Of a DNA stretch of 64,000 nt, positions 3,401 through 33,882 are shown one piece after another. Below the pieces are notes generated by a model. The model was not told where the DNA came from. It was given only the letters and a program-made list of their open reading frames with translations, and ran no database searches. Position numbers and translations under genes: made by a program. Numbering within the stretch: the first letter of the stretch is position 1; the number at the start of each line of letters is the position of its first letter. The stretch is taken from contig JAKZZE010000026.1 of the NCBI GenBank assembly GCA_024220505.1, forward strand, positions 124,001 through 188,000, read 5' to 3'. This stretch comes from Rhizopus arrhizus (Eukaryota; Mucoromycota; Mucoromycetes; Mucorales; Rhizopodaceae).

Positions 3401-3444
3401 CTGAAAGCCAAAAAAAGATATAAATACTCAAAGAACACAGTTGG

Positions 3445-4401
3445 GTGAAAGCTAAAAATCTACTTTATTATCTATCAGACTCTTTGGAAAGAATTTATGT
3501 GGATAACAACGACATTAAAGAAGCATTTGAATTGACTATTCATGTACATTCAAAATCGTGCATTGTACAAGTTATTTCTCAGTTCCTCAAAGATTATCGA
3601 AACCTCCTAATAATTTTTCTTATTCTATGCTTGCACGAAACTCTTGTACATGTAGATTGACTGTGCAAGAAAATTTAAAGAAACGATCGCCAGAGGAGCA
3701 ATACACAAATCCAGTTGTACAAAGACTTCGATCGCCTTCACCTGTACGAGATTTTTTTGATCAAGAATTACGGTCACTTCTTCTGCACAAAAAACAGATT
3801 GAAGTATGCGATACTTTCACCCAAAGACTTTTTGCCAAATATCATATTTAAAAAATTCCCACAGCCTTCTCAAGAATATCAAGTCATTATTGATCATCAG
3901 CCCTTCGACAAGAATATGGTGATCAACAAGCAGACAATTGATGTTGCGATTGAGAAGTTGAAAGCATTTTTAATTCATTCCTTCATAGTCAGCCAACAAA
4001 ATAATTGGATATTCATCACGCAAGTCGAAATATATTATAAAGACAAAGATATAGATGATGTTGCAACTATCAGTAAACTGGATCAATATATTGATAATCT
4101 TTACCATTAACTTGGAGAATTTTTAAGAGGGCAAAGCAGCATGGTATGAATTACGCTTCGTCTTTGGTAAATTTGAAATAATTGCAACAGGTGGTCTCTA
4201 CAACCACATAAAGGATGATAAACTGGACGTGTTTCTTGGTGTTGCTGCACCTTCCCTAATGGCTTTTGACGACAGATTCATTTTGTTTTCACCCGTCCAA
4301 GCAGCAAATACTGAACTATGCCCAAGGATGCTTAAGAATTACAAAAAGAAAGCAAGTTTGAACCCTTGGTGCATCAAGTCATCATTTTTTTTTGCAGCCT
4401 G
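3445..4401 (+). pseudogene. decayed gene of unknown function, cut at the inverted-repeat edge
   Basis: Plausible protein sequence continues across all three plus-strand frames, broken by frameshifts and stops. First comes a stretch around LLYYLSDSLERIYVDNN (3460-3560), then SPVRDFFDQELRSLLLHKK (3735-3800), then about 90 codons ending IDNLYH-stop at 4110. Finally a clean run of about 80 codons begins near 4139 with AAWYELRFVFGKFEIIATGG and reaches LNPWCIK at the arm edge (4372). After entering the arm this frame stops at 4399-4401. I do not recognise the family. The last segment is the best preserved and would be the one to search with. It could be part of one gene with the ORF just inside the arm (4402-4809), but that is guesswork. 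Confidence 0.35.
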
Positions 4402-4809
4402 AATTCCTGTACTCCTGTACCGCTTGAATTATTTGAGACAGAAGCGCTTGGATATGTATCCATATGCTCAAAGCTTCTGAGCTTGGCATTATTTGAACCA
4501 CTTTCATCCAATGATGTACAAAGTTTGATAGATATGCTATCTCAGATGAAGTATTGGACTGACCTTGGATTTGAAGATAATGTTGGGAATGAGCAAGTCA
4601 TGGTTAAGCTCAGGGAAATGAAAGACAAGAAGAATACCAAAGACAGAAAGCTATCAGTGGCTAAACGGTTGTTAATTGAGTTGCTTATTGATTTCAATTA
4701 CGATCAGCCAATAAGCCAAAATACTTTACTGACCTTGTACATTGGTATTATACACCCAAGAGTTAAAAGTATCAATAAGCAAAGAGTAAAAAATATGTTG
4801 AAGTTGTAA
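4402..4809 (+). CDS. unidentified C-terminal exon-like ORF (left-arm copy)
   Basis: A frame of about 135 codons, open from about 4366 and ending TAA at 4807-4809, follows a polypyrimidine-AG sequence resembling a 3' splice site (4384-4398), so it looks like a last exon. The product contains LGYVSICSKLL, SLIDMLSQMKYWTDLGFEDN, VAKRLLIELLIDFNYDQP and ends VKNMLKL. I do not recognise it. The mirrored copy in the right arm also stays open although about 12 bases differ near its start. Most of these changes alter the protein (Thr/Ile, Phe/Leu, Ser/Asn, Ala/Thr, Ser/His, Met/Ile), which argues against strong selection. No upstream exon can be assigned. Confidence 0.35.
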   Translation, partial: NSCTPVPLELFETEALGYVSICSKLLSLALFEPLSSNDVQSLIDMLSQMKYWTDLGFEDNVGNEQVMVKLREMKDKKNTKDRKLSVAKRLLIELLIDFNYDQPISQNTLLTLYIGIIHPRVKSINKQRVKNMLKL

Positions 4810-5334
4810 ATAAACTATATCCTATCCTTTATTTTGAAACCAGAGAAGAACTGTTTTTGCAGAAAATAAACTTGATTGTTTTTATTACAGTAAAAATGTA
4901 CAGAGTTTATATAGTTTTACAATAGCTGAATTACTAAGAATTTAATTAATAGAGTATTATATATTGGTACTTGAAGTGTCCAATAAATCAGAATATGTTG
5001 AATATTCGTCATGATCTGCCGATCTATTTAGCCAATACTTAATAGTCATACATGTTTAATTGGATAGGGATATACATTTTTATGCATAATTGGCTCAATC
5101 GGTTCTTTTAAAATCTATTAAGGACTAAGAAGAGGTCAACAGACCGCACATAGTATCAGTTTCAGGCTGTAGCACTATCGGAAGACATTTTATTAGAGGA
5201 AATGGTATTCTGTATTGAAGTTCTTTTGCTCGCATCCATATTTATAATGAATCATTCTTTCGACGAAGATTTAGAATAAGTTGTGATCTTTTCTTTAGAA
5301 TTTTAGAAGGGGTAAAAGGCGGTAGTGTATTTTT
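4810..5334. other. AT-rich non-coding stretch in left arm
   Basis: No coding signal or recognisable element. The sequence is AT-rich and unique within the window apart from its mirror at about 32832-33356. It lies between the unidentified C-terminal ORF and the Harbinger transposase relic, and may include the former 5' region of that element. Confidence 0.4.
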
Positions 5335-6403
5335 ATGCAAAGACACAACCGTTCAGGCCGAATTGGCCCTTCCAGCTTACAAAAGGTTTCTATAGCTATT
5401 CGTCTGTTAGCCTGTCGCAAATCTTCTGGTTCATTTGATAAATACTTCCGGTTTGCTACAACTACGTCAAGAGAGTGTTTAAAGCGTTTCTGCAAGGCTG
5501 CTATTAACGTATATAGTGTTAGATATGAGACGAACAAATCAGCAAGATGTTAACAGATTATACGAACTTGCTGAAGAACAAGGTTTTCTGGTATGCTTGG
5601 CTCACTTGATTGCCTACATCGGGAATGGAAGAACCACCCTACAGCCTGGCATGTCATGTCCAAATGTAAGCACGATAAGCCAATTGTAATACTTGAAGCA
5701 GTTGCTTCTTCTGATCTCTGGGTTTGACACACTTTTTTTGGGCTCCCTGGGCCATTAAATGATGTCAACGTTTTACAACGTTCGCCTCTTTTTGCTAAAA
5801 TGGCTGAAGGTAACGACCCATCAACGAGTTTTACTGTCAATGGGCATAAGTACGAAAGAGACTATTATCTTTTTGATGATACATACCCAAGAGACGCAAC
5901 ATTTGTTCAAATAATCCACGAGTTACAGACACGATAGGAGAATGTAAAAAAATTGCAGAATTGTGAAATCTACTTTTAATATTGATAATATACTTAAAAA
6001 TTTTTATAATCATTTAGTAAGAAGTAAGAAGGCTACTGAAAAAATGTTGAGCGTGTATTTGTGGTTTTACAATCAATGTTTGACATAGCTACGCAACCTT
6101 TTCGCTTTCGGAAGATCTCAGATATGCACAGAGTTACGAAAACCTGTACCATATTGCAAAACATGATCATTGAAAACCAAAGGCCGGGTGATATTGACGA
6201 AATTCTCCTTTGGGAGCGAGAACATCAAGGCTTATTATTTGTTCCTACAGAATCACAAAGACTACAAGAATAACAATAACCAGTAAGCCTTGATGAGTTT
6301 ATTAGTAATCATAACAAATTTACGAACCAACAGGCTCATTTTGATCTGCGAACGGATCTAGTGGAGAGTCTTTGGAGGAGAAACGGAGACGCTTTATCAA
6401 GCT
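5335..6403 (+). pseudogene. PIF/Harbinger (DDE_Tnp_4) transposase relic, left-arm copy
   Basis: Three broken frames together give a PIF/Harbinger-type transposase. The N-terminal part has SSLQKVSIAIRLLACRKSSG and FRFATTTSRECLKRF (5390-5500). The catalytic part has GMLGSLDCLHREWKNHPTAW, then PIVILEAVASSDLWV, FFGLPGPLNDVNVLQRSPLF and FTVNGHKYERDYYL (5590-5880). The C-terminal part has VERVFVVLQS, MHRVTKTCTILQNMIIENQR and, after a stop, QQAHFDLRTDLVESLWRRNG (6040-6400). The three acidic catalytic residues expected for this family (Asp in SLDC, Asp in LNDVN, Glu in VERVF) are all present, but at least two frameshifts and several stops make it non-functional. The identical damage is carried by the right arm, so the element died before the arms were last made identical. 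Confidence 0.75.
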
Positions 6404-6502
6404 AATGTTTCTTTTTCTTCTGTACATACTTTAACTTACTGTCATCACATTCAAACCAAATAGAATAGACAAAATTGAAGATGAATGCCGTCGACATGTT
6501 TG

Positions 6503-6701
6503 TATTCATTATACGCATACAGACACCTTTTATTCTCATAATCCGAGCTTTTCTATTTTCTCTCTCTCTCTTTCGTCAATGTAAAGCAATATTCAGTTGA
6601 TAATCAATAAAATTCAGTTTATGAATTACTCTTTTTAGTAAAGTATTCCTTGCTTGCATAAATGAGAAAGTAAATAAAGGAAGAATACGGTTCGGAGTAA
6701 A

Positions 6702-6744
<43 letters not shown>
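6503..6744 (+). repeat. SINE-like unit A with 40-nt poly(A), left arm
   Basis: A block of about 200 bp starting TATTCATTATACGCATACAG and ending GGTTCGGAGTAAAAGC followed by 40 A is repeated, in direct orientation, at 12384-12592 with few differences. Both copies end in an A-rich tail, of different length, which is the usual mark of retroposition. It encodes nothing. I see no clear tRNA-like A and B boxes, so it could be a SINE, a LINE 3'-end fragment or a retroposed transcript. Confidence 0.6.
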
Positions 6745-6746
<2 letters not shown>

Positions 6747-7071
6747 AAGACCATAATGAGAGTCATAAAAAAAAAGAAATTGGGGATCTTTTAAAAAAGG
6801 ATAGAACTTACTTTAGTCTATTCAGTAAGGCAGTTATGCTTTATTGTGTATAGTTTAATATAAGGCATTTTTACAGTTCCATGATTTTCAGCTTTACATG
6901 TCCCCTCTCACGAACAATAGTTTAATATTTAGCTTGTCCTTTTCTATAACTATGTATTAACAGGTTATAAGGAATACATCACTAGTGAATAACCTAATAA
7001 GTTGCCTATAAATGAAAAAATATAAAAGTTCATATATAAGAATAGATTGTTTTGAATAATATGTGAGTATT

Positions 7072-7104
<33 letters not shown>

Positions 7105-10100
7105 TCCATGTATTTAGCAGAATTTGAATTTATTGATCCTTTTGTAAGTGTGTTAAAAATAGAGCCTTAATTAGTCGGCATGCCTTTTTAAGATTTGCAT
7201 GAATGAATTTTTATTCCCAGTAGAAAAGAGAGAGAAAAAGAAAGAGAGAGAGAGAGAGAAAAGCATCCTTACCTAAAGAAATATAAAATCTTCCCTTCTT
7301 ATTCAAAGCTAGTATATATAGAGAGCTCTCTTTACAACTCTTTGTATTTATTTTATTCTTTAAGCTTTAAAAGAGGGTGTTTCAAAATAATAACGCCCAT
7401 CTTATGTGGCACAAGATAGGCAATAGCCTTATGAGGAAAAAAAAAAGAAATATAAATAAAGACAGAAATACTCTTGTTTTTCATTTTCTTTCATTCTTTA
7501 CTCTTTGGTTCACTTCATACAAATCATAACTTCTGGTCTATCAATGGATAACACTGCCCTTAAAGCCTCTTTGGTCAGGTACTCTTTAAACTGTAGCTTA
7601 ATATCTCAGGTTGATGTATTCTTTTAACACATGGTCTTTATAGAATAAAAACTATCATCTACAACGCGTTCTCTGCTTCTTGTGTTGCTATTCTAATAAC
7701 TATACTTGGTCAAGTAGTCTCTTCAATGGCCTATCTATCTCGTCAAACAAAATCCTACACATTCTTTACCTATTTATTTCCTATCTGGTTTGCTTCTAGG
7801 CTCCGCTGGTCCCTGTCCAACACTTGATGGCCCTGTCTAGACCCTATCTAGACCCTAGCTTATCCCTATATTGGACCCTGTCTATGTCTTTATCCTCTTT
7901 GGCTTTCTGTTCCTTTTTTCCTTTTTTCTCAAACAAAAGTTTTTGCTATATACATCGTCCATGTGATTGTGCACATCAGAAGCTTGACTCGTCTCCTAAT
8001 AGTGGTTACATGTTGGGAGAGCAGGATCGTAACCAAACCCCAAGTAGGTGTGTAAGCACTTGTTTGTCCCCGTAGAGTCGCGAGTCGGGTAGTATAATCA
8101 GCGGCATCAAGCTTCGTCGTTCCCGTACAAAGGTTGATAGTAGAGTAACATCTGCTATTGGCTGAGCCACAAGTCGGGCGGTATAAATCGTGGCAAATGT
8201 ATCTTTCATAGATGTGTATAGTAAATTCAGATGTTTGAGAATAAGCAAGTCTTATGAATCATAATGTAATCATCTTCAAGCCAATTGTCTTTAAACTGTC
8301 TCTTTCCAAATTAATCGTCTTCGAATCTATTATCTTTAAAATAACTCTTTATAAATGACAATAAACATGCAAAGCTTATAAGCATTAATACATATACTCT
8401 TTATCAGATACCATAAATGACTTTGAGGCATAAAAAGATATAATAATTAAAGAGAAGCTTTATCAAAGAGAATACAATCCTGTTTGTGATATTAATTGGC
8501 TTGCTTAGTTGGGTTACAATCATTCAAAGGAGAGGATAAAAATAAATAAACGCAGAGGCGTTGTTTCATCCTCTTTATTAAGACTAAGAGGAAGAGCTTC
8601 TTAACCAAAACAAGGTCATCATAGATGGAAATCAAATATAGACTTATTTATCAAAATATGTCTCTAACAAGATCAGATACATCATTGAGCACAGTCCAAA
8701 GCATAGAGCCATTCATTTGTGCCTGCTAAGTTTGATATAGCATCTGTTAGTTTGCTCTCTATAATTGCTTTTCAAGTATTCAGATTCAAGGTTTTATTTA
8801 TTGAAAGGTGACTGAGGCTTTACTCTATGAAGCACAAGGTGCCTAGCTAGAACAGCATAAATTTTACAGAATAATTAAAGTGGAGAAATAAAAAAAAGTA
8901 GGGGAGCAAAAAGAACCGTTTTTTCTTTTACAGAAAAAAAGAGACCATACAAGGGAAACCATTGTCTTAAAGAGCTGAGGATAAACAGAGTAAAGAGAGG
9001 ACCGGAGGTTTACATCTTATGAGAAGCTGATTGAGATTGAAGATTTCAGCTTGTCGAGTAATAATCGTCCAGAAGTATTCGCTGCTTCATTACAAAAGTC
9101 GTAGTTGAGATGACAGGCACAGTCCATATCCAAAAGAATAGAACAAATAACTGACCATCAGAAAGACAAACACTCAGCAAAGTGAGATGAGAATCAAGGA
9201 CGAATAACTTTTGGCAATTGATTAACATTATAATCTAACGGATTAAACCTTGAGCCTGGAGAGATTTGCGTATAGGAAGCAATATCAATGCATTCTCGCA
9301 GAACCACGGAACAAAGAGAAGGACGGTAGGGCAACCAATCCCCACACACAAGTGTAGACACCTAATTTGATCTGAATTAAGCATGGGGGGGGAGTTAGGA
9401 TGGCGATCAATGCCAAGTTATATTCGACATGCAGACAAGGATACAAGTAATTTTGAAGTACTCAACTTTTTGTGTAAAAGCTGCCCACAAAGAAGGAGTA
9501 CAGACAATTTTATTTGTTTGGTTGTAGTAATGTAATCCAGCCGACCAGAGGTTGAGATGAAGATACCATGCAAAGAGAGGTTATTCTATGTTGTATCAAT
9601 ACGAGTCAAGAGAGGCCAGCGAGAACTCTCTGTCTTTGGAGGATTTTTCAAAATGTTTTTCAGTATCAAATGGGGGTTTTCTACGTAAATGCTCTTGCAG
9701 GGGCTATACTAGTTAATAATACAATTGAAGTTTATGGACGTACAAGGACGATCAACTCTCATTACGAAAGATTTAGCATGTAGAAGAATATGCTTTAGCC
9801 AAGCTCTTTATCACTAAGCAATGCTAAATATAAAAATGCTTGTTTTACAAATTTAATAAATACAGATGATGTAAAACTGATAGTGGACGCTAAAGTGTTT
9901 AATGGCTTGGCTATATTGAACACAAGAGTTGATAAAGAGCCCTCATTTGGAAGAAGGATTGACAATTCCAAACTTTGTACTCAACAGAGTAGATACCGAT
10001 CTGATTGAAATATACATTAAAGAAACAACATGGAATGATGCAACAATTTTGGTAGAAGACGAATCAGCAATAGAAATTGATTCAACATTATCTTATATAG

Positions 10101-12383
10101 CTTAGTTATGGAGGAAGTTTTAGCGATACAATAATCTTATGATGCAATCTTACACAACATGGATGTAATTCAACTTTGATATACAAGCTGGCAAATATTT
10201 CAATAGAAGAATACTTCAATCGAAGAATAGCCTTAAAGCTATTCCAAGACATTGCTATTGAAGTTATAAGATATAAGAAAGCAGCCATGATTGAAGGAAA
10301 GGGACTATGAAATCTTATTGTAAAATGTAAGGATAAGACGATCATGGGAAGTATACTTGATTTGTTTGACGAATCAAAACAAATTGAGATAATTGAAGAC
10401 AAAGGATCGAATTAGAAATTATGTAAACTTGGAGTTATTCCAAATTATTATCTAGCAACAGTGAACAATAATTTGACAAAATCGATATCAATTTCCATTA
10501 AAAGTACATAAGTTTAGTTAATTACAAATGCTGTACTTTACAATGGTAGTGAGACAGGTGTATTCGTTAGATTTCTATATATATATATATATATATATAT
10601 TGTTTTTATATTATTGACATTTTTAGCACGAGTACTTTCCATCTCAATTCCTCTTCTCCTTTGCCATCGCTCGTACATTGTTCCAAATAAACCTTCCTTC
10701 CTGTCTCTGCCTCAAGTCATGATGTCCCATCAACTATGACTATTAGTCATGATCTGCTTTCTATCCAGCGCTCTCATTGGATGTTCGTATTTGATAACAT
10801 TCCTATTCGCACATCCATCATCCTCTTGATTTTCGAAAGATTACCATGCAATCACGTCAAGAAAGCCTCATACAAAATGACTATTCTCATATTGCACTTT
10901 TCTACTGATCGTTGGATTAGCTTCCGCTCGAACTTTTATGTTTTATTCAAATTGTCTTTACAACGTTTCCACATTTACAATAAACGAATATAGAGAAGCG
11001 GAAAATAAAGATAAGTAACAGTTTGATATGAAAACACTGTAAATCCAGTAGACATAAACACAATGCAAATCCTTCATTCAATCATTCAGCAATCTATTTA
11101 TGAAGTGTGGTGTATCTAGTTGCAAGGCTAGTCTTTATAGCGTCTTTTATATATGGTATAAACTAATGTAGCTTAAATACCTATAGATATTCTCCTTTTC
11201 CATCAGCTTGTGTTACTTATTTACCTTTCAATCCACATATCCCTTTACTGACTTTTATAATGCAATACAATAAAGACAAACACTTGCCTCTCTTTTATAC
11301 CATCAGTAAGCATTGTATACACATTTCCTTTTATCCCTCATCCTGTTATTCCAAGTATTGGCGCTGTAACCATCATATTTCCTTTTTTGCACATATTATT
11401 CATCCAGTGTGGTTGAGTCAAATTATCTAGTTTTTCATAGCTATTGCTAACCTTTTCTATACTTTTTTCTTTTTCTTTTCTTAGGCGAAATGAACATAGG
11501 TAGTTGGAACTATGGATTGAATACTAAAGAGTACAGGTGGTTTATTTGGTATTACAGACTAGGATAAGATAAAAGCCATGATAAGTTTGGTAACGATGTT
11601 AAAGTCGCTTAGCTCTTGTTCTCTTACTTTTTGTTTTCTTTCTTCTTCTACTACTACTACTATTTTTCCATCACTTACTGAAGTTGTTGGTTCTAAGTAT
11701 GCTTAGTTCAAATGATGGTTAACTAAATAGGAACTTTATTTTTTGGGGGGGGAGTAAACTGATTAACAGTAATAAAAGTTGTATTCCTTTATAGTAGTTA
11801 GTATCTACTCTAGTATCTTCTCTATTTATATCTCCCCTCCCTTCCCCCTCCCTCTCTCCTTTTTTTTTTACAACACTATAATACTATCAGTGCGTCCTTG
11901 AGCTAAACAAGCGAAAAATAGAAATAGCTTTGAATGCTTTTTCAACTCCGTTCTTTTTTTCTTTCCACATGTACTACCCTAGGCACAGAAGACCTGACAA
12001 CTAATTGGTTCTGAGCTGATTAATTTAACATTACTGGTTGGTCGGATCAGTCTCGAATGAGCGGTTCCAGTAGATCAGAACATAATGAAGAGTATGCTAA
12101 AGTATGAAACTTGAATATCAAAAAATTAAACATAGAAGAAGACAATGAAATAGTGAATTAAGATACAATTCTTAGAACACTTGATATTGAGCTATAGCTC
12201 TTTAGAATAACTGAATATGTTGTGATTTAGGTAGCTTCTAATCGTTGCAGATGATGTTTGCAACAGCTAATACAACCCATTATTCTGAGAAGGAGGAGCA
12301 TTTCATTATTGTTCGTTGCTAGTCAATAGTAAAGGCCATTGATCCGTGTACAGATGTTAACCTATTGCATTTTTTAGATATGC
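6745..12383. other. non-coding interior of left arm with microsatellites
   Basis: No gene can be supported over these 5.6 kb. Visible features are a (GA)n tract at about 7075-7101, a second GA-rich tract at 7226-7260, an (AT)n tract at 10578-10600, a run of 8 G at 9386-9394, and a slightly GC-richer stretch at 8000-8200. In that stretch a short imperfect repeat (AGTCGGGTAGTATAATC and AGTCGGGCGGTATAAATC) occurs at about 8083 and 8170. The patch where the two arms differ most inside the repeat lies at 8250-8460. Short ORFs (60-98 codons) show no protein-family character I recognise. Confidence 0.5.
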
Positions 12384-12592
12384 TATTCATTATACGCATA
12401 CAGACACCTTTTATTCTCATAATCCGAGCTTTTCTATTTTCTCTCTCTCTCCCCTCAATATAAAGCAATATTAAGTTGATAATCAATAAAATTCAGTTTA
12501 TGAATTACTCTTTTTAGTAAAGTATTCCTTGCTTGCATAAATGAGAAAGTAAATAAAGGAAGAATACGGTTCGGAGTAAAAACAAAAAAAAA
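12384..12592 (+). repeat. SINE-like unit B, left arm
   Basis: Second direct copy of the ~200-bp block found at 6503-6744. It starts at the same base (TATTCATTATACGC) and ends at the same point (GGAGTAAAAAC), followed by a short A tail. The copies differ at a few positions, for example around the CT-rich tract (CTCTCCCCTCAATATAAAGC here, CTCTTTCGTCAATGTAAAGC in unit A) and in tail length. Because only the unit and not its flanks is shared, it moved or was duplicated as a discrete element. Confidence 0.6.
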
Positions 12593-13422
12593 CAAGATTG
12601 TTTACTGACTAAAAACAGAAGCATGTAAAGAACTTGACCATCTCTCGCTTTGAGTTCAATTCATTTTATTCTGATTCGCAAGCGTTTTCCTTTCATGATA
12701 AGGTAGTGATTTATAAGTCAACTTATGTTAAACATCTTTTCCCCTTTTCTTATTGAAAAAACATAGATAGCAAAATGGAAATAAAAAAAAGTGGTTTGTG
12801 TGACACTAGTACAATTTTCATGCAAAAGAAAGAAAGAAAAAAAGATTTCCTTTTCAGCCCACAATCTTTGTAACAAATGTTCTAATTTACGTTCCATTTT
12901 TTTATTTTTTTTTATTTTTGACCATCATACTTCACAACCAAATCAACCCTACATTGTTAGATACTTTGACTTCTGCTATATTTTGTTTCTAGGCACGAAA
13001 TAACCCGTGCGTATAGTGATTGGTTCTTATACTTTACTGAGTTGTTATGTGTGGAATAAGTGAAACGGTAGCTTAGTAAAAATAAATATAAAAAAGTCAT
13101 TCTATTCTCATCTTTTTGCTTTGTTTATATTTGACGCACAAATAAAAAATGTGATTCGACTTGGTATTTTGTGTGTGAGTGCATGTGAGAGAGAGAGAAA
13201 GAGAGAATCAAATTATATATACTACGAACAATAAATATAGTGAACATTGAAAACGATTTGGATATGCCTTGAGTGAAGAATGTAATAAAGCTCCTTTCTT
13301 TAACGCGTTTCTTTTTTGTTTTATTTTTTCTTTCAAGTCTTATCTTTAATTAGGATAGTATTTCATATGAAGAGAAAAAAAAGTCAATCAAGAGTTTATT
13401 TACTCCTTAATTTCATGTGTGC

Positions 13423-13456
<34 letters not shown>

Positions 13457-13834
13457 TTCCAAGTAAATAAACAAAAGTAACCAAGGAATTTGAAGATAAG
13501 AAATTTAAGCTATAAAAAGTCATTTCCATTTTTCTATTTCTTTTCTTTTTTTTTTTTTTTCCTCCCTATCAAAGAAGAAAAGAAAAAACAAAGAAAAATA
13601 ATAATGGTTCTGGTCGGGTGCACTGGTTATGGCTCTTTTCTGTTCCATGGTCTTTTGGGTATGGCTCCTGGGTGGTCTCTTTTGTGTTTTTTTTTAAGCC
13701 ATTTTTTTTTCAGGTTTTTCGCCTGCAACAAGACCAGGTTGGGATCAAATGTACTTTTACCTTCGCGTGGTTGATCCTGTTAATCAAAGTCTAAAAAGCT
13801 TTGAGAACCAAAAAAAGTACGATTCTCTCTTTGT
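12593..13834. other. AT-rich non-coding stretch with poly(A) and poly(T) runs
   Basis: No gene. Contains a GA-rich microsatellite (13187-13206), a 26-nt A run at about 13428-13453, a 15-nt T run at about 13546-13560, and a mildly GC-richer piece at 13600-13800. The 94-codon frame across that piece (LVGCTGYGSFLFHGLLGMAP region) is dominated by homopolymer-derived Phe and Lys runs and is not a convincing gene. Confidence 0.45.
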
Positions 13835-14142
13835 TCTCATGGCTTTCTGGTGTATATAACTTTAAGGGACGTAATCTCTTTATAAGGTTTATGGCTATTT
13901 TTTATCTACATTATGTCTCATACTAGATTGATAGGGGGTGTTGGTGGCAAGGATGATGTTTTCCTCATGAAATTTGGATATATGTTCCTATGGCTCTCTG
14001 GTGTATATAACTTTAAGGGACGTAATCTCTTTATAAGGTTTATGGCTATTTTCTATCTACATTATGTCTCATACTAGATTGATAGGGGGTGTTGGTGGCA
14101 AGAATGACGCGTTTCTCATGAAATTTGGATATTTGTTCTTCA
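13835..14142 (+). repeat. two-copy tandem repeat, 151-bp period (left arm)
   Basis: Two adjacent copies of a 151-bp unit start at 13841 (GGCTTTCTGGTGTATATAAC) and 13992 (GGCTCTCTGGTGTATATAAC), each containing AGGGACGTAATCTCTTTAT, GATAGGGGGTGTTGGTGGCA and ATGAAATTTGGATAT. A third unit begins after TTTGTTCTT but is lost at once. The copies differ at a handful of bases. No coding function is apparent; the mirror lies at 24025-24332. Confidence 0.85.
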
Positions 14143-16288: not shown

Positions 16289-16343
16289 GGTTAATAATAA
16301 AAGCAAAGAAAGATTGAAATAAAATGATATAAAAAAAAACTTC
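16289..16343. other. short AT-rich joint between left arm and LINE
   Basis: These 55 bases (many A, few C or G) separate the last base shared by the two arms (16288) from the 3' break of the LINE relic near 16344. They match neither arm nor LINE protein sequence, and may be filler DNA from rearrangement or the eroded tail of the LINE. Confidence 0.4.
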
Positions 16344-17439: not shown

Positions 17440-17478
<39 letters not shown>

Positions 17479-21880: not shown

Positions 21881-22133
21881 TAAGCATGTGATGCTGAGCT
21901 ACAATAAGTGAGAGTCTATCCTCCATGATAGCAATTTATTATAACTCTAGCATCTCTTGGTACTTGTTTTGTCCACAAGGTCTCAAGTTACCAGTAAAAT
22001 GCCTGTGTATAGCAAACATTAAAGCTGATTTGAGATGGAAAGTATAAAGGATATGCAAAGAATAAAAAAAAAAGAAAAGAAAAGGCTTCCTCATCACAAA
22101 AGGCTCTCTCAGTGACACAAACCACCACATAAA

Positions 22134-22805
22134 ATGCGGAAAGTGAAATCAAAGTCACACAGCAGTCGCATTGTTGTCGATCGTATTTCATTGTTCCTTG
22201 TTCTTTCTGTTTGCTTCTTTTGTTCTTTTTCTTTCTCTTTTCTCTTTTCTCTTTTATATTTCTTATAAACATCAATAAATCTGTCAATATAGGATTTATA
22301 ATCATTGTAAGTTAGATTTTTTTATTTATCCTTTTGCTAATCAACAGATTCAGTAAACATTATCAAGTCAATAAATTAATGGAGCAAAAAGGAAACAACT
22401 TGTAAGATGATATAATCATAATCAGCGTATATATCAGTTTATGACTATTTACTACACCATCACCTTGATTAGTACAAAAGAAGGTCCAAGATAACACTGT
22501 GTGATAGCTTACTTTGATGGATAAGAGGAAACTACAGATTTACTATATGCTAGATAGGATGTAGACTATACTGATAGAGCGGAAAGCAGCTCAAGATAAT
22601 CTCTGTCTATTTAAGAGTAATATCCTAAGATCAGGCTTATATTAGGAGATATAGGGACCATGGTTGTAAACTAGGTATGGTCAACAAAAAAAGAAAAAGG
22701 ATCAACAAGATGGTAAAGATCGTTGAATAGAGGATTCAATGAAAGCTAGTTACCCAATGACACATCCAAGGTTTCAAAAGTAGGGCAAAGCCAAATCTAT
22801 TGTCT
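22134..22805 (-). repeat. mirror of the dispersed repeat in the right arm
   Basis: This is the right-arm counterpart of 15364-16035. A third, diverged copy lies at 35746-36420 in the opposite orientation to this one. The surrounding 21881-24024 is otherwise AT-rich with no gene; the open frame at 21988-22305 is the purine-tract frame already rejected in the left arm. Confidence 0.7.
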
Positions 22806-24024
22806 AGTAATCAACGCACAATTTATCATCTTCTCTATAGTGTAGCTGGACCCATTTATTCATCACTTCACAGGTAATTTTCCATGTATACGATATATGC
22901 ATTAAATTGTTTTTGTAAGAAAGCTGATTAAATAAATCTAAGGCTATTATTAGTGTGGGTTGACTGCATACCTGTTAGGCCTACTACGGATATTATGGAT
23001 ACTGCAGATCAAGCATTGGATCCTTTGCTAGTATTTTATCAGAAACGATCATATATGAAAGGATGGGGACATGAGAATACTTGTTTCAAGATTTGATTAG
23101 AGAGCCTATTCTGAACTCATAGTAAGATGATAGGAAAAAGAAAAAGAAAAATGATGATCTCTATTAACAAAAGGTATACATATTAGCTTCATCTGACTAT
23201 ATCCTTTTTATTACTTAACACTATATTTTATCATAACCCCTTTTATGGTGATCATGTTTATATGATGTATCGTTGCTATTTTTATTTTTCTTTACAAAAC
23301 AAACAGATGATGAAATATGAATAGAACAAAGAAGAATAAAAGTTTGCTTACTTCAATACAAATACAAAGACCTATATAAGCTGCGTTTATATCCAACTAA
23401 GCTTATGTATAGATAGCTCACCTTATTATCAGCATGATAGGTGATGATATCTCTATTATATATGAATTCTTTTAACATCAGCCTAGCTAATTTACAACTA
23501 ATGTATGATCGCAATTAGCTGTTAAATGTTCATAATACACAACATTCCTATTGACTGATGCAAGTAAGTTTGTATATTCGTAAATAAGCCTTTATCTATT
23601 AGTATATTGGATCTAGTTCTTGTGTAGCATGTCTAGGTTTATGTATATATATACACAACTGTGAGAAAGAGAGGAGTACATGTTCTATATCACTAAAAAG
23701 GTTATCCTTCAATATAGACTCATATGCTTTCTCTTGTGTAATAAGACATAAAGGACATTAGATGGTCTTCTTTATCTCTTGATTTCCTTTTAGGCAGTGT
23801 TCATTTTTCTTACTTTTATGAATGAACAAGTTACAATATAGACGTATTTATTTATTGCATATTATTGTATTTAAAGTAATAATAATAAAGAAATAAACAT
23901 AATGTTTCAAAAAAAGATTATTTTTATTTATTATAATAGATATTTGAGCAAAATATGCTTTTATTTAAAAAGGAAAAAAGGAAAAAAAAAAAAAAAAAAA
24001 AGGGGGGGGGGAATAAATATTTAC

Positions 24025-24332
24025 CTTGAAGAACAAATATCCAAATTTCATGAGAAACGCGTCATTCTTGCCACCAACACCCCCTATCAATCTAGTATGA
24101 GACATAATGTAGATAGAAAATAGCCATAAACCTTATAAAGAGATTACGTCCCTTAAAGTTATATACACCAGAGAGCCATAGGAACATATATCCAAATTTC
24201 ATGAGGAAAACATCATCCTTGCCACCAACACCCCCTATCAATCTAGTATGAGACATAATGTAGATAAAAATAGCCATAAACCTTATAAAGAGATTACGTC
24301 CCTTAAAGTTATATACACCAGAAAGCCATGAG
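24025..24332 (-). repeat. two-copy tandem repeat, 151-bp period (right arm)
   Basis: Mirror image of the tandem duplication at 13835-14142, with the same two copies and the same internal differences between copies. The duplication therefore predates the last event that equalised the arms. Confidence 0.85.
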
Positions 24333-24710
24333 AACAAAGAGAGAATCGTACTTTTTTTGGTTCTCAAAGCTTTTTAGACTTTGATTAACAGGATCAACCA
24401 CGCGAAGGTAAAAGTACATTTGATCCCAACCTGGTCTTGTTGCAGGCGAAAAACCTGAAAAAAAAATGGCTTAAAAAAAACACAAAAGAGACCACCCAGG
24501 AGCCATACCCAAAAGACCATGGAACAGAAAAGAGCCATAACCAGTGCACCCGACCAGAACCATTATTATTTTTCTTTGTTTTTTCTTTTCTTCTTTGATA
24601 GGGAGGAAAAAAAAAAAAAAAGAAAAGAAATAGAAAAATGGAAATGACTTTTTATAGCTTAAATTTCTTATCTTCAAATTCCTTGGTTACTTTTGTTTAT
24701 TTACTTGGAA

Positions 24711-24744
<34 letters not shown>

Positions 24745-25574
24745 GCACACATGAAATTAAGGAGTAAATAAACTCTTGATTGACTTTTTTTTCTCTTCAT
24801 ATGAAATACTATCCTAATTAAAGATAAGACTTGAAAGAAAAAATAAAACAAAAAAGAAACGCGTTAAAGAAAGGAGCTTTATTACATTCTTCACTCAAGG
24901 CATATCCAAATCGTTTTCAATGTTCACTATATTTATTGTTCGTAGTATATATAATTTGATTCTCTCTTTCTCTCTCTCTCACATGCACTCACACACAAAA
25001 TACCAAGTCGAATCACATTTTTTATTTGTGCGTCAAATATAAACAAAGCAAAAAGATGAGAATAGAATGACTTTTTTATATTTATTTTTACTAAGCTACC
25101 GTTTCACTTATTCCACACATAACAACTCAGTAAAGTATAAGAACCAATCACTATACGCACGGGTTATTTCGTGCCTAGAAACAAAATATAGCAGAAGTCA
25201 AAGTATCTAACAATGTAGGGTTGATTTGGTTGTGAAGTATGATGGTCAAAAATAAAAAAAAATAAAAAAATGGAACGTAAATTAGAACATTTGTTACAAA
25301 GATTGTGGGCTGAAAAGGAAATCTTTTTTTCTTTCTTTCTTTTGCATGAAAATTGTACTAGTGTCACACAAACCACTTTTTTTTTATTTCCATTTTGCTA
25401 TCTATGTTTTTTCAATAAGAAAAGGGGAAAAGATGTTTAACATAAGTTGACTTATAAATCACTACCTTATCATGAAAGGAAAACGCTTGCGAATCAGAAT
25501 AAAATGAATTGAACTCAAAGCGAGAGATGGTCAAGTTCTTTACATGCTTCTGTTTTTAGTCAGTAAACAATCTT

Positions 25575-25783
25575 GTTTTTTTTTTGTTTTTACTCCGAAC
25601 CGTATTCTTCCTTTATTTACTTTCTCATTTATGCAAGCAAGGAATACTTTACTAAAAAGAGTAATTCATAAACTGAATTTTATTGATTATCAACTTAATA
25701 TTGCTTTATATTGAGGGGAGAGAGAGAGAAAATAGAAAAGCTCGGATTATGAGAATAAAAGGTGTCTGTATGCGTATAATGAA
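25575..25783 (-). repeat. SINE-like unit B, right arm
   Basis: Mirror of 12384-12592; the A tail is read here as T at the low-coordinate end. Between this unit and 31422 the arm (25784-31421) is the non-coding interior already described for the left arm, with its (TA)n tract at 27569-27590 and (CT)n tract at about 31066-31093. I see no gene in it. Confidence 0.6.
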
Positions 25784-28700
25784 TAGCATATCTAAAAAAT
25801 GCAATAGGTTAACATCTGTACACGGATCAATGGCCTTTACTATTGACTAGCAACGAACAATAATGAAATGCTCCTCCTTCTCAGAATAATGGGTTGTATT
25901 AGCTGTTGCAAACATCATCTGCAACGATTAGAAGCTACCTAAATCACAACATATTCAGTTATTCTAAAGAGCTATAGCTCAATATCAAGTGTTCTAAGAA
26001 TTGTATCTTAATTCACTATTTCATTGTCTTCTTCTATGTTTAATTTTTTGATATTCAAGTTTCATACTTTAGCATACTCTTCATTATGTTCTGATCTACT
26101 GGAACCGCTCATTCGAGACTGATCCGACCAACCAGTAATGTTAAATTAATCAGCTCAGAACCAATTAGTTGTCAGGTCTTCTGTGCCTAGGGTAGTACAT
26201 GTGGAAAGAAAAAAAGAACGGAGTTGAAAAAGCATTCAAAGCTATTTCTATTTTTCGCTTGTTTAGCTCAAGGACGCACTGATAGTATTATAGTGTTGTA
26301 AAAAAAAAAGGAGAGAGGGAGGGGGAAGGGAGGGGAGATATAAATAGAGAAGATACTAGAGTAGATACTAACTACTATAAAGGAATACAACTTTTATTAC
26401 TGTTAATCAGTTTACTCCCCCCCCAAAAAATAAAGTTCCTATTTAGTTAACCATCATTTGAACTAAGCATACTTAGAACCAACAACTTCAGTAAGTGATG
26501 GAAAAATAGTAGTAGTAGTAGAAGAAGAAAGAAAACAAAAAGTAAGAGAACAAGAGCTAAGCGACTTTAACATCGTTACCAAACTTATCATGGCTTTTAT
26601 CTTATCCTAGTCTGTAATACCAAATAAACCACCTGTACTCTTTAGTATTCAATCCATAGTTCCAACTACCTATGTTCATTTCGCCTAAGAAAAGAAAAAG
26701 AAAAAAGTATAGAAAAGGTTAGCAATAGCTATGAAAAACTAGATAATTTGACTCAACCACACTGGATGAATAATATGTGCAAAAAAGGAAATATGATGGT
26801 TACAGCGCCAATACTTGGAATAACAGGATGAGGGATAAAAGGAAATGTGTATACAATGCTTACTGATGGTATAAAAGAGAGGCAAGTGTTTGTCTTTATT
26901 GTATTGCATTATAAAAGTCAGTAAAGGGATATGTGGATTGAAAGGTAAATAAGTAACACAAGCTGATGGAAAAGGAGAATATCTATAGGTATTTAAGCTA
27001 CATTAGTTTATACCATATATAAAAGACGCTATAAAGACTAGCCTTGCAACTAGATACACCACACTTCATAAATAGATTGCTGAATGATTGAATGAAGGAT
27101 TTGCATTGTGTTTATGTCTACTGGATTTACAGTGTTTTCATATCAAACTGTTACTTATCTTTATTTTCCGCTTCTCTATATTCGTTTATTGTAAATGTGG
27201 AAACGTTGTAAAGACAATTTGAATAAAACATAAAAGTTCGAGCGGAAGCTAATCCAACGATCAGTAGAAAAGTGCAATATGAGAATAGTCATTTTGTATG
27301 AGGCTTTCTTGACGTGATTGCATGGTAATCTTTCGAAAATCAAGAGGATGATGGATGTGCGAATAGGAATGTTATCAAATACGAACATCCAATGAGAGCG
27401 CTGGATAGAAAGCAGATCATGACTAATAGTCATAGTTGATGGGACATCATGACTTGAGGCAGAGACAGGAAGGAAGGTTTATTTGGAACAATGTACGAGC
27501 GATGGCAAAGGAGAAGAGGAATTGAGATGGAAAGTACTCGTGCTAAAAATGTCAATAATATAAAAACAATATATATATATATATATATATAGAAATCTAA
27601 CGAATACACCTGTCTCACTACCATTGTAAAGTACAGCATTTGTAATTAACTAAACTTATGTACTTTTAATGGAAATTGATATCGATTTTGTCAAATTATT
27701 GTTCACTGTTGCTAGATAATAATTTGGAATAACTCCAAGTTTACATAATTTCTAATTCGATCCTTTGTCTTCAATTATCTCAATTTGTTTTGATTCGTCA
27801 AACAAATCAAGTATACTTCCCATGATCGTCTTATCCTTACATTTTACAATAAGATTTCATAGTCCCTTTCCTTCAATCATGGCTGCTTTCTTATATCTTA
27901 TAACTTCAATAGCAATGTCTTGGAATAGCTTTAAGGCTATTCTTCGATTGAAGTATTCTTCTATTGAAATATTTGCCAGCTTGTATATCAAAGTTGAATT
28001 ACATCCATGTTGTGTAAGATTGCATCATAAGATTATTGTATCGCTAAAACTTCCTCCATAACTAAGCTATATAAGATAATGTTGAATCAATTTCTATTGC
28101 TGATTCGTCTTCTACCAAAATTGTTGCATCATTCCATGTTGTTTCTTTAATGTATATTTCAATCAGATCGGTATCTACTCTGTTGAGTACAAAGTTTGGA
28201 ATTGTCAATCCTTCTTCCAAATGAGGGCTCTTTATCAACTCTTGTGTTCAATATAGCCAAGCCATTAAACACTTTAGCGTCCACTATCAGTTTTACATCA
28301 TCTGTATTTATTAAATTTGTAAAACAAGCATTTTTATATTTAGCATTGCTTAGTGATAAAGAGCTTGGCTAAAGCATATTCTTCTACATGCTAAATCTTT
28401 CGTAATGAGAGTTGATCGTCCTTGTACGTCCATAAACTTCAATTGTATTATTAACTAGTATAGCCCCTGCAAGAGCATTTACGTAGAAAACCCCCATTTG
28501 ATACTGAAAAACATTTTGAAAAATCCTCCAAAGACAGAGAGTTCTCGCTGGCCTCTCTTGACTCGTATTGATACAACATAGAATAACCTCTCTTTGCATG
28601 GTATCTTCATCTCAACCTCTGGTCGGCTGGATTACATTACTACAACCAAACAAATAAAATTGTCTGTACTCCTTCTTTGTGGGCAGCTTTTACACAAAAA

Positions 28701-31062
28701 GTTGAGTACTTCAAAATTACTTGTATCCTTGTCTGCATGTCGAATATAACTTGGCATTGATCGCCATCCTAACTCCCCCCCCATGCTTAATTCAGATCAA
28801 ATTAGGTGTCTACACTTGTGTGTGGGGATTGGTTGCCCTACCGTCCTTCTCTTTGTTCCGTGGTTCTGCGAGAATGCATTGATATTGCTTCCTATACGCA
28901 AATCTCTCCAGGCTCAAGGTTTAATCCGTTAGATTATAATGTTAATCAATTGCCAAAAGTTATTCGTCCTTGATTCTCATCTCACTTTGCTGAGTGTTTG
29001 TCTTTCTGATGGTCAGTTATTTGTTCTATTCTTTTGGATATGGACTGTGCCTGTCATCTCAACTACGACTTTTGTAATGAAGCAGCGAATACTTCTGGAC
29101 GATTATTACTCGACAAGCTGAAATCTTCAATCTCAATCAGCTTCTCATAAGATGTAAACCTCCGGTCCTCTCTTTACTCTGTTTATCCTCAGCTCTTTAA
29201 GACAATGGTTTCCCTTGTATGGTCTCTTTTTTTCTGTAAAAGAAAAAACGGTTCTTTTTGCTCCCCTACTTTTTTTTATTTCTCCACTTTAATTATTCTG
29301 TAAAATTTATGCTGTTCTAGCTAGGCACCTTGTGCTTCATAGAGTAAAGCCTCAGTCACCTTTCAATAAATAAAACCTTGAATCTGAATACTTGAAAAGC
29401 AATTATAGAGAGCAAACTAACAGATGCTATATCAAACTTAGCAGGCACAAATGAATGGCTCTATGCTTTGGACTGTGCTCAATGATGTATCTGATCTTGT
29501 TAGAGACATATTTTGATAAATAAGTCTATATTTGATTTCCATCTATGATGACCTTGTTTTGGTTAAGAAGCTCTTCCTCTTAGTCTTAATAAAGAGGATG
29601 AAACAACGCCTCTGCGTTTATTTATTTTTATCCTCTCCTTTGAATGATTGTAACCCAACTAAGCAAGCCAATTAATATCACAAACAGGATTGTATTCTCT
29701 TTGATAAAGCTTCCCTTTAATTATTATATCTTTTTATGCCTCAAATTCATTTATGATATCTGATAAAGAGTATATGTGTTAATGCTTATAAGCTTTGCAT
29801 GTTTATTGTCATTTATAAAGAGTTATTTTAAAGATAATAGATTCGAAGACGATTAATTTAGAAAGAGGTAGTTTAAAGACGATTGGCTTGAAGATGATTA
29901 CATTACGATTCGTAAGACTTGCTTATTCTCAAACATCTGAATTTACTATACACATCTATGAAAGATACATTTGCCACGATTTATACCGCCCGACTTGTGG
30001 CTCAGCCAATAGCAGATGTTACTCTACTATCAACCTTTGTACGGGAACGACGAAGCTTGATGCCGCTGATTATACTACCCGACTCGCGACTCTACGGGGA
30101 CAAACAAGTGCTTACACACCTACTTGGGGTTTGGTTACGATCCTGCTCTCCCAACATGTAACCACTATTAGGAGACGAGTCAAGCTTCTGATGTGCACAA
30201 TCACATGGACGATGTATATAGCAAAAACTTTTGTTTGAGAAAAAAGGAAAAAAGGAACAGAAAGCCAAAGAGGATAAAGACATAGACAGGGTCCAATATA
30301 GGGATAAGCTAGGGTCTAGATAGGGTCTAGACAGGGCCATCAAGTGTTGGACAGGGACCAGCGGAGCCTAGAAGCAAACCAGATAGGAAATAAATAGGTA
30401 AAGAATGTGTAGGATTTTGTTTGACGAGATAGATAGGCCATTGAAGAGACTACTTGACCAAGTATAGTTATTAGAATAGCAACACAAGAAGCAGAGAACG
30501 CGTTGTAGATGATAGTTTTTATTCTATAAAGACCATGTGTTAAAAGAATACATCAACCTGAGATATTAAGCTACAGTTTAAAGAGTACCTGACCAAAGAG
30601 GCTTTAAGGGCAGTGTTATCCATTGATAGACCAGAAGTTATGATTTGTATGAAGTGAACCAAAGAGTAAAGAATGAAAGAAAATGAAAAACAAGAGTATT
30701 TCTGTCTTTATTTATATTTCTTTTTTTTTTCCTCATAAGGCTATTGCCTATCTTGTGCCACATAAGATGGGCGTTATTATTTTGAAACACCCTCTTTTAA
30801 AGCTTAAAGAATAAAATAAATACAAAGAGTTGTAAAGAGAGCTCTCTATATATACTAGCTTTGAATAAGAAGGGAAGATTTTATATTTCTTTAGGTAAGG
30901 ATGCTTTTCTCTCTCTCTCTCTCTTTCTTTTTCTCTCTCTTTTCTACTGGGAATAAAAATTCATTCATGCAAATCTTAAAAAGGCATGCCGACTAATTAA
31001 GGCTCTATTTTTAACACACTTACAAAAGGATCAATAAATTCAAATTCTGCTAAATACATGGA

Positions 31063-31095
<33 letters not shown>

Positions 31096-31420
31096 AATAC
31101 TCACATATTATTCAAAACAATCTATTCTTATATATGAACTTTTATATTTTTTCATTTATAGGCAACTTATTAGGTTATTCACTAGTGATGTATTCCTTAT
31201 AACCTGTTAATACATAGTTATAGAAAAGGACAAGCTAAATATTAAACTATTGTTCGTGAGAGGGGACATGTAAAGCTGAAAATCATGGAACTGTAAAAAT
31301 GCCTTATATTAAACTATACACAATAAAGCATAACTGCCTTACTGAATAGACTAAAGTAAGTTCTATCCTTTTTTAAAAGATCCCCAATTTCTTTTTTTTT
31401 ATGACTCTCATTATGGTCTT

Positions 31421-31421
<1 letters not shown>

Positions 31422-31464
<43 letters not shown>

Positions 31465-31663
31465 TTTACTCCGAACCGTATTCTTCCTTTATTTACTTTC
31501 TCATTTATGCAAGCAAGGAATACTTTACTAAAAAGAGTAATTCATAAACTGAATTTTATTGATTATCAACTGAATATTGCTTTACATTGACGAAAGAGAG
31601 AGAGAGAAAATAGAAAAGCTCGGATTATGAGAATAAAAGGTGTCTGTATGCGTATAATGAATA
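31422..31663 (-). repeat. SINE-like unit A with ~39-nt poly(A), right arm
   Basis: Mirror of 6503-6744. The tail is 39 T on this strand against 40 A in the left arm, one of the few indels between the arms, as expected for a homopolymer. Confidence 0.6.
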
Positions 31664-31762
31664 CAAACATGTCGACGGCATTCATCTTCAATTTTGTCTA
31701 TTCTATTTGGTTTGAATGTGATGACAGTAAGTTAAAGTATGTACAGAAGAAAAAGAAACATT

Positions 31763-32831
31763 AGCTTGATAAAGCGTCTCCGTTTCTCCTCCAAAGACTC
31801 TCCACTAGATCCGTTCGCAGATCAAAATGAGCCTGTTGGTTCGTAAATTTGTTATGATTACTAATAAACTCATCAAGGCTTACTGGTTATTGTTATTCTT
31901 GTAGTCTTTGTGATTCTGTAGGAACAAATAATAAGCCTTGATGTTCTCGCTCCCAAAGGAGAATTTCGTCAATATCACCCGGCCTTTGGTTTTCAATGAT
32001 CATGTTTTGCAATATGGTACAGGTTTTCGTAACTCTGTGCATATCTGAGATCTTCCGAAAGCGAAAAGGTTGCGTAGCTATGTCAAACATTGATTGTAAA
32101 ACCACAAATACACGCTCAACATTTTTTCAGTAGCCTTCTTACTTCTTACTAAATGATTATAAAAATTTTTAAGTATATTATCAATATTAAAAGTAGATTT
32201 CACAATTCTGCAATTTTTTTACATTCTCCTATCGTGTCTGTAACTCGTGGATTATTTGAACAAATGTTGCGTCTCTTGGGTATGTATCATCAAAAAGATA
32301 ATAGTCTCTTTCGTACTTATGCCCATTGACAGTAAAACTCGTTGATGGGTCGTTACCTTCAGCCATTTTAGCAAAAAGAGGCGAACGTTGTAAAACGTTG
32401 ACATCATTTAATGGCCCAGGGAGCCCAAAAAAAGTGTGTCAAACCCAGAGATCAGAAGAAGCAACTGCTTCAAGTATTACAATTGGCTTATCGTGCTTAC
32501 ATTTGGACATGACATGCCAGGCTGTAGGGTGGTTCTTCCATTCCCGATGTAGGCAATCAAGTGAGCCAAGCATACCAGAAAACCTTGTTCTTCAGCAAGT
32601 TCGTATAATCTGTTAACATCTTGCTGATTTGTTCGTCTCATATCTAACACTATATACGTTAATAGCAGCCTTGCAGAAACGCTTTAAACACTCTCTTGAC
32701 GTAGTTGTAGCAAACCGGAAGTATTTATCAAATGAACCAGAAGATTTGCGACAGGCTAACAGACGAATAGCTATAGAAACCTTTTGTAAGCTGGAAGGGC
32801 CAATTCGGCCTGAACGGTTGTGTCTTTGCAT
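31763..32831 (-). pseudogene. PIF/Harbinger transposase relic, right-arm copy
   Basis: Mirror of 5335-6403 with the same frameshifts and stops. Minus-strand pieces run SSLQKVSIAIRLL, then GMLGSLDCLHREWKN, FFGLPGPLNDVN and VERVFVVLQS, followed by MHRVTKTCTILQNMIIEN, so both catalytic Asp and the Glu are visible in broken frames. No terminal inverted repeats of the original element could be placed around it. Sharing of every lesion with the left copy means the two are not independent insertions. Confidence 0.75.
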
Positions 32832-33356
32832 AAAAATACACTACCGCCTTTTACCCCTTCTAAAATTCTAAAGAAAAGATCACAACTTATTCTAAATCTT
32901 CGTCGAAAGAATGATTCATTATAAATATGGATGCGAGCAAAAGAACTTCAATACAGAATACCATTTCCTCTAATAAAATGTCTTCCGATAGTGCTACAGC
33001 CTGAAACTGATACTATGTGCGGTCTGTTGACCTCTTCTTAGTCCTTAATAGATTTTAAAAGAACCGATTGAGCCAATTATGCATAAAAATGTATATCCCT
33101 ATCCAATTAAACATGTATGACTATTAAGTATTGGCTAAATAGATCGGCAGATCATGACGAATATTCAACATATTCTGATTTATTGGACACTTCAAGTACC
33201 AATATATAATACTCTATTAATTAAATTCTTAGTAATTCAGCTATTGTAAAACTATATAAACTCTGTACATTTTTACTGTAATAAAAACAATCAAGTTTAT
33301 TTTCTGCAAAAACAGTTCTTCTCTGGTTTCAAAATAAAGGATAGGATATAGTTTAT

Positions 33357-33776
33357 TTACAACTTCAACATATTTTTTACTCTTTGCTTATTGATACTTT
33401 TAACTCTTGGGTGTATAATACCAATGTACAAGGTCAGTAAAGTATTTTGGCTTATTGGCTGATCGTAATTGAAATCAATAAGCAACTCAATTAACAACCG
33501 TTTAGCCACTGATAGCTTTCTGTCTTTGGTATTCTTCTTGTCTTTCATTTCCCTGAGCTTAACCATGACTTGCTCATTCCCAACATTATCTTCAAATCCA
33601 AGATCAGTCCAATATTTCATCTGAGATAATATATCTATCAAACTTTGTACATCATTGTGTGAAAGTGGTTCAAATAATGTCAAATTCAGAAGCTTTGAGC
33701 ATATGGATACATATCCAAGCGCTTCTATCTCCAATAATTCAAGCGGTACAGGAATACAGGAATTCAGGCTGCAAAA
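33357..33776 (-). CDS. unidentified C-terminal exon-like ORF (right-arm copy)
   Basis: Mirror of the ORF at 4402-4809, again open to its TAA (33357-33359) and preceded by a polypyrimidine-AG sequence. Compared with the left copy it reads SCIPVPLELLEIEALGYV, then CSKLLNLTLFEPLSHNDV and LIDILSQMKYWTDL. Upstream on the minus strand, beyond the arm edge, lies a different and unrelated dead gene, so one or both flanking contexts were created by rearrangement. Function unknown. Confidence 0.35.
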   Translation of the reverse strand, partial: FCSLNSCIPVPLELLEIEALGYVSICSKLLNLTLFEPLSHNDVQSLIDILSQMKYWTDLGFEDNVGNEQVMVKLREMKDKKNTKDRKLSVAKRLLIELLIDFNYDQPISQNTLLTLYIGIIHPRVKSINKQRVKNMLKL

Positions 33777-33882
33777 AAAAATGATGACTTGATGTTACCA
33801 GTGAGGGGATATATATACGGAAGGAGTGCTTCATGCCTAAGACCGTGCTGTATTGAGAAGGAGAAGGTCATGTACTTGGGAA

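Follow-up and report, generated by a model that had tools for sequence, protein, structure and literature searches.

Does a nearly perfect palindrome that holds no living gene serve the chromosome that carries it, or is it a by-product of the repeats of which it is made? This question is raised by a stretch of 64,000 nucleotides of the Rhizopus arrhizus genome (assembly GCA_024220505.1, 50.26 Mb in 41 contigs), which was analyzed as a whole and is called the window below. It corresponds to positions 124001–188000 of contig JAKZZE010000026.1 (C19 in our numbering of the contigs), and coordinates given without a contig are those of the window. The palindrome (P1) proved to be one of several related inverted-repeat structures, most of which are homogenised within their own locus and which accompany a short repeated element forming a single cluster on each contig where it occurs. 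We consider it probable that P1 is the core module of a predicted regional centromere or pericentromere of this Mucorales fungus, built of homogenised inverted repeats.

The arm coordinates and mirror sums given in the initial annotation were exact on re-comparison. The left arm (P1L, 4372..16288, + strand) and the reverse-complemented right arm (P1R, 21881..33794, − strand) share 99.74% identity across 11,920 BLAST columns, and the mirrored coordinates add up to 38166–38169. The arms enclose a spacer of 5592 bp (16289..21880). The outer flanks of the arms are unlike each other, and so are the two ends of the spacer. The statement that no gene inside the palindrome is alive held as well: no stop-to-stop frame that overlaps the arms or the spacer is longer than 157 amino acids, and among the frames scanned against Pfam (30 in total) those with matches inside the palindrome were transposon debris only, such as a fragment of a PIF/Harbinger-type transposase (Plant_tran, PF04827) at 6040..6270 (+), with a mirror copy at 31893–32126. 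Neither tRNA nor known RNA was revealed in the window by ARAGORN and Rfam.

Self-comparison of C19:1–258000 revealed that related repeats span about 68–161 kb of the contig, so that the window cuts through a larger cluster. This cluster contains a second palindrome, P2, with arms at C19:77024–77863 and 81249–82088 (99.88% identical) and a spacer of 3.4 kb. The right arm of P2 with its extension (81249–99354) matches the left arm of P1 with its extension (122154–140288) in inverted orientation at 94–99%; the left flank of the window (1..4371), together with C19:122154–124000, is the part homologous (96.8–98.7%) to the outer extension of P2 at C19:93085–99354. The spacer of P1 equals that of P2 (95%) plus a stretch of about 2.2 kb (17189..19394, −) resembling a long interspersed nuclear element (LINE), which appears as a gap in the spacer alignment and contains a weak match, under the Pfam cut-off, to the endonuclease Exo_endo_phos_2 at 17549–17773. 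Relative to the extension-bearing arm, the spacer of P2 is reversed, which fits an inversion via crossing over between the arms; ectopic copying of the extension would explain it equally well. It should be noted that a 250-amino-acid frame with C2H2/SUZ12-like zinc-finger matches lies inside the cluster at C19:120069–120818 and adjoins a duplicated stretch (C19:119251–120150, copy at 75030–75930).

Both arms of P1 contain an element of about 500 bp, E, whose core lies at 15485..15831 (+; wider element about 15354–15960) in the left arm and at 22337..22683 (−) in the right one. A third copy in the window (35742..36352, +) lies outside the palindrome, within a partial copy of a larger unit, U, which measures 2.4–2.9 kb, contains E (e.g., C19:70026–72865) and has a longest frame of 135 amino acids. 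A 541-bp DNA query (C19:70284–70824) found 29 candidates, all of them scored, whose 38 match rows merged to 29 copies of E: two on C5, five on C8, one on C12, eight on C19, two on C23, one on C25, three on C29, six on C37 and one on C39. E therefore occurs on nine of the 41 contigs, in a single cluster per contig, and the clusters, none longer than 182 kb, jointly make up 0.8% of the genome. Less than 50 kb separates 25 of the 29 copies from another copy, the random expectation being 1.6 on average and 11 at most in 5000 trials, and 15 of 20 neighbouring pairs are inverted (one-sided p 0.02; the pairs are not independent). The clusters of C5, C8, C19 and C37 are internal to their contigs.

Unit U was found in the E clusters except that of C12, where the E part stands alone (among the best 40 of 88 candidates). 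On five contigs (C5, C8, C19, C23 and C37) it faces inward from both sides of the cluster middle, partial units being counted on C19 and C23, and outer units on C37, C23 and C8 are oriented otherwise. As the units are few, chance could well produce a facing pair, and the inward orientation is taken as supporting evidence only. An isolated sequence related to the inner arm (C12:148865–152096, 69–88%) also lies on C12, a contig without U among the same candidates.

The genome was searched for components of the kinetochore and of silencing. Mucor retains CENP-T, and here a CENP-T_C match of 43.6 bits was found on C41, with two stop codons within its span that perhaps represent an intron; the other seven matches of this search lie at or beside H3 loci. 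Seven of the 21 histone-fold matches were H3 genes, each with a canonical sequence. This fits the lack of CENP-A reported for Mucorales: in the relevant passages of a survey of 55 Mucoromycotina, none of the Mucorales and Umbelopsidales examined has CENP-A (PMC9089191). Two Piwi-domain matches were present in the genome; for Mucor, passages of a published study describe small RNAs arising from pericentric LINEs (PMC7377519).

Several observations weigh against the centromeric reading. No E match was found on 32 of the 41 contigs, including the 3.2-Mb contig C1, contigs not being chromosomes. The E copies of C8 are spread over 182 kb, and the four of them that were compared are only 94.5–96.9% alike, that is, not homogenised. 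C19 and C37 each contain two or more palindromes or inverted pairs, exceeding the needs of a single simple core, the cluster of C29 sits at the contig start, and short matches of 70–130 bp to the edge of E occur on C22, C24, C25 and C26. Open reading frames are depleted at C19:80–90 and 130–160 kb; there is no such depletion at 100–120 kb, which holds zf-RVT frames and low-complexity stretches, and 190–200 kb is just as empty, although it lies beyond the cluster. A distinct single AT-rich core was not found on C19, where the 200-bp windows of lowest GC (0.15–0.16) sit in the arms. No CENP-A-like H3 was found among the seven H3 genes, from which an intron-split CENP-A could have escaped. Relatives of the arm segment 7163–8303 lie outside the E clusters at C8:477–478 kb, C8:522–523 kb and C37:2.142 Mb (among the best 40 of 57 candidates). 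Finally, zf-RVT remnants are present in and near the C19 cluster according to Pfam (e.g., PF13966 in a LINE remnant at 3005..3427, −, left of the palindrome), and LINEs of this kind are found genome-wide, on at least 35 of the 41 contigs (best 150 of 414 candidates); they are dispersed and not restricted to the clusters, in contrast to the pericentric retrotransposons of Mucor, which passages of one paper identify as Grem-LINE1s (PMC7377519).

A rival reading is a heterochromatic repeat island without a kinetochore role. E and U would then be a non-autonomous mobile element with a preference for silent chromatin or for sites beside its own copies, and nested insertion and gene conversion would have left the palindromes as by-products. 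The transposon debris in the arms, the single copies of E/U on C25 and C39 and of E alone on C12, the 182-kb spread on C8, the 32 contigs without E and the outlying relatives of segment 7163–8303 all speak for such an origin. Random nesting, however, hardly explains why each of nine contigs has one cluster and why units face inward on five of them, and other elements of the same arms and spacer behave differently: positions of about 8993–9647 and 19470–19770 match families scattered over many contigs. We therefore regard a plain repeat island as rather unlikely, while taking it to be the most serious of the alternatives. Retrotransposons of the DIRS type, described in passages of a published work as carrying tyrosine-recombinase and reverse transcriptase genes between inverted terminal repeats (PMC3783388), had no match among the 30 frames scanned, shorter frames not having been scanned.

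Two of the dispersed sequences deserve separate mention. Positions 8993–9647, with their mirror copy, are 68% identical to a family represented by eight equal-scoring copies on eight contigs (best 40 of 57 candidates), a pattern suggestive of an element active in the recent past. A stretch of 82 bp (13739–13820, with its right-arm mirror) recurs alone at 91–96% on C40, C28 and C15, with weaker copies on C11 (five places), C14 and C41; at 13650–14200 Rfam gave only chance-level matches to RNA families and ARAGORN no tRNA.

The centromeric reading gains from the comparison of P1 with homologous palindromes, which bears at the same time on its age. The junction between inner arm and spacer (arm ending in ...CATGCTTA) lies at the identical base in P1, in P2 and in the right arms of C29 and C37. 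C29 carries a homologous palindrome, the contig beginning inside its left arm; its arms (1329–2819 and 8135–9628) are listed as 100% identical (a rounded value) over 1494 bp, its inner-arm stretch 1329–2819 is 90–94% identical to P1, P2 and C37, and at the left junction the arm match stops where the spacer match starts (2819/2820). The palindrome of C37 is truncated. Its right arm (2230067–2239643) is present in pieces together with pieces of the spacer, and its left arm lacks the inner part, a remnant (2223191–2225317) directly meeting spacer sequence at 2225317. The ends of the P1 spacer (16289–17188 and 19395–21880) have whole or partial copies at 91–97% in P2, C29 and C37. In the outer arm, the segment 6701..8838 (+) is common to C37 and C29 at 94–96%, both arm remnants of C37 start near the equivalent of 6716–6718, and parts of 7163–8303 are matched on C8, C23, C25, C37 and C39 at about 68–84% (both comparisons among the best 40 of 57 candidates). 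With this junction conserved to the base in all four palindromes, the simplest history is one in which they descend from a single inverted duplication.

The arms of each palindrome are nevertheless far closer to each other than to those of other loci. The innermost 819 bp of the arm show no mismatch within P1 (0/818) or within P2 (0/819), whereas between loci the mismatches amount to 47/818 (P1–P2), 34/819 (P1–C29), 33/773 (P1–C37), 49/818 (P2–C29), 49/772 (P2–C37) and 29/779 (C29–C37), i.e., 3.7–6.4%. Inverted pairs compared as 801-bp pieces behaved similarly on C5 (no mismatches in 792 bp, one gap base) and on C37 (2241.4/2251.3 kb; no mismatches in 801 bp, 10 gap bases); the C5 and C8 copies are 86% alike. 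In a tree built from 18 rows of E, of which 16 were different, P1L grouped with P1R, P2L with P2R (support 89/83), C5a with C5b (100/98) and C37a with C37b. On this comparison, most of the inverted pairs are homogenised within their own locus; C8 is the exception, and its copies count against a general rule.

The few differences between the arms of P1 are themselves informative. They comprise eight length changes of 1–2 bases and 22 substitutions, the latter in two patches: 12 at 4412..4563, inside the outermost 192 bp of the arms (a density of 6%), with the adjoining 3.7 kb free of substitutions, and the remaining 10 at 8255..8453. Random placement of 22 changes (20,000 trials) never put more than six into a 200-bp window. 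At the first patch, the left arm agrees with the P2 copy at 12 of 12 sites; with its outer differences retained next to the substitution-free stretch, this patch resembles the border of a conversion tract. At the second, the left arm agrees at 10 of 10 sites with the neighbouring copy at C19:122.2–124.0 kb, to which it is identical along 1.53 kb (7180–8709), so that exchange would involve third copies too; in the right arm, four of the 10 sites have the base of P2, and the other six match no copy compared. The copying mechanism may have been gene conversion or break-induced replication, and one ancestral inverted duplication followed by recurrent gene conversion fits the pattern.

These data bear directly on the possibility that P1 arose recently, by inverted duplication or fold-back at a single site, its arms being near-identical merely through youth. 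The arm identity of 99.74% and the LINE-like stretch within the spacer would suit such an event, and a fold-back at a LINE had been proposed in the initial annotation. A junction common to palindromes diverged by 3.7–6.4%, the crowding of 12 differences in the outer 192 bp beside 3.7 kb without substitutions, and the absence of the LINE-like stretch from the spacer of P2 speak against it. We rejected it on the common junction and the patchy differences, and consider it very improbable. An assembly artefact (a fold-back read, a false join or a duplicated haplotype) seems more improbable again. The structure was judged from the assembled sequence, and C29 begins inside an arm, a sign of difficulty for the assembler; on the other side, outer flanks and spacer ends differ, 22 patchy substitutions separate the arms, and diverged palindromes elsewhere have the same architecture.

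Long inverted repeats are also known from subtelomeres and sex loci. ACAACC arrays, which correspond to the telomere repeat of R. stolonifer as given in passages of a published report (PMC13111411), were found at the ends of C9 and C17, on C20, and internally on C17 and C41. All these contigs lack E, on which ground a subtelomere was rejected, a weak argument as only some contig ends show arrays. Ordinary genes flank the C19 cluster on the right, and no HMG-domain match occurred among the 30 scanned frames, no search having been aimed at a sex locus; a structure of either kind is therefore highly unlikely here. The recognizable genes start by about 43 kb of the window and encode, according to Pfam, a TPR protein, a CDP-alcohol phosphatidyltransferase, an acyl-CoA dehydrogenase, an isocitrate dehydrogenase and an EF-Tu-type GTPase. 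Right beside the palindrome, a 243-amino-acid open frame (34924–35652), G+C-rich (0.41–0.48), has no Pfam match. The internal arrays of C17 (892671–892834) lie 26 kb from its terminal array, and that of C41 is short (663.4 kb). The array unit suits the genus Rhizopus without proving it; in a protein search with a CNOT3-like frame, R. delemar was the closest named match (87%, after two sequences at 91% and 89%), and Mucor circinelloides (67%) and Umbelopsis (61%) were more distant. The fossil of a circular or hairpin replicon, also suggested earlier, was discarded, there being no replication gene among the 30 frames.

What was suggested at the outset as a centromere or pericentromere thus stands in part. 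One E cluster per contig (nine of 41), homogenisation within loci and the lack of a CENP-A-like H3 speak for it, and the unhomogenised copies of C8 against it. If it is correct, an old inverted duplication would have produced the module (arm, spacer and reversed arm), which then would have spread among centromere clusters via segmental duplication or ectopic exchange, and each locus would now be homogenised separately by gene conversion between its facing arms. Clustering of chromosomes in the nucleus would allow exchange between clusters, as the facing arms would allow it within a locus. The E clusters would carry the kinetochore, the spacer being a candidate core and the arms pericentric repeats, and transcripts of the facing arms might form double-stranded RNA that feeds the RNA interference (RNAi) machinery and helps to silence the region. 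More tentatively, it can be hypothesized that centromere identity without CENP-A, or its silent surroundings, is carried by palindromic modules hopping between chromosomes, with the mirror structure (as a source of double-stranded RNA or a looped fold) being maintained and not any one sequence. In this proposal, continual gene conversion between the arms would uphold the mirror symmetry.

Among known systems, the palindromes of mammalian sex chromosomes carry living genes and have large arms, between which gene conversion maintains near-identity. The arms described here are likewise large and near-identical, and contain recognized debris only. In fission yeast centromeres a central core lies between inverted repeats, and silencing is linked to RNAi; the core flanked by inverted repeats is shared by our structures, for which a link to RNAi would be an inference. 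Passages on centromere types name the regional centromeres of fission yeast beside those with homogenised inverted repeats (HIR) (PMC4741521).

The way in which chromosomes of Mucorales define a centromere in the absence of CENP-A is still an open problem. In passages of three papers, the mosaic centromeres of Mucor lusitanicus/circinelloides are characterized by a 41-bp motif and an AT-rich core, with retrotransposons in the pericentric regions (PMC9089191, PMC10977804, PMC12925627), and are said to lie in gene-free, transposon-bearing regions (PMC9089191). Common to them and to the loci described here are the CENP-A-less Mucorales background and the gene-poor regions with retrotransposons. 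The passages on Mucor mention no homogenised inverted repeats, and the cluster repeat here is unit U, without a long open reading frame (longest frame 135 amino acids). A report of inverted-repeat centromeres in Mucorales was not found among the matches listed in open-licence literature (titles and openings of abstracts), by which we do not claim that none is in print.

The closest likeness is to the HIR centromeres of Candida tropicalis. According to passages of the published description, all seven centromeres of that species have repeats of 2–5 kb, 93% identical on average within and 82% between centromeres, CENP-A is present and kinetochore binding was shown (PMC4741521). Shared with them, as far as these passages describe them, are the higher similarity within than between loci, the homology common to different chromosomes or contigs, and the core flanked by inverted repeats (P1, P2 and C29). 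Here, however, the arms reach 11.9 kb, there are several palindromes or inverted pairs per cluster, and no CENP-A was found; we do not claim membership of the class. If the clusters are centromeres, the architecture of homogenised inverted repeats would extend to an early-diverging lineage without CENP-A, and the nine contigs would give coordinates for asking whether symmetry replaces the missing histone.

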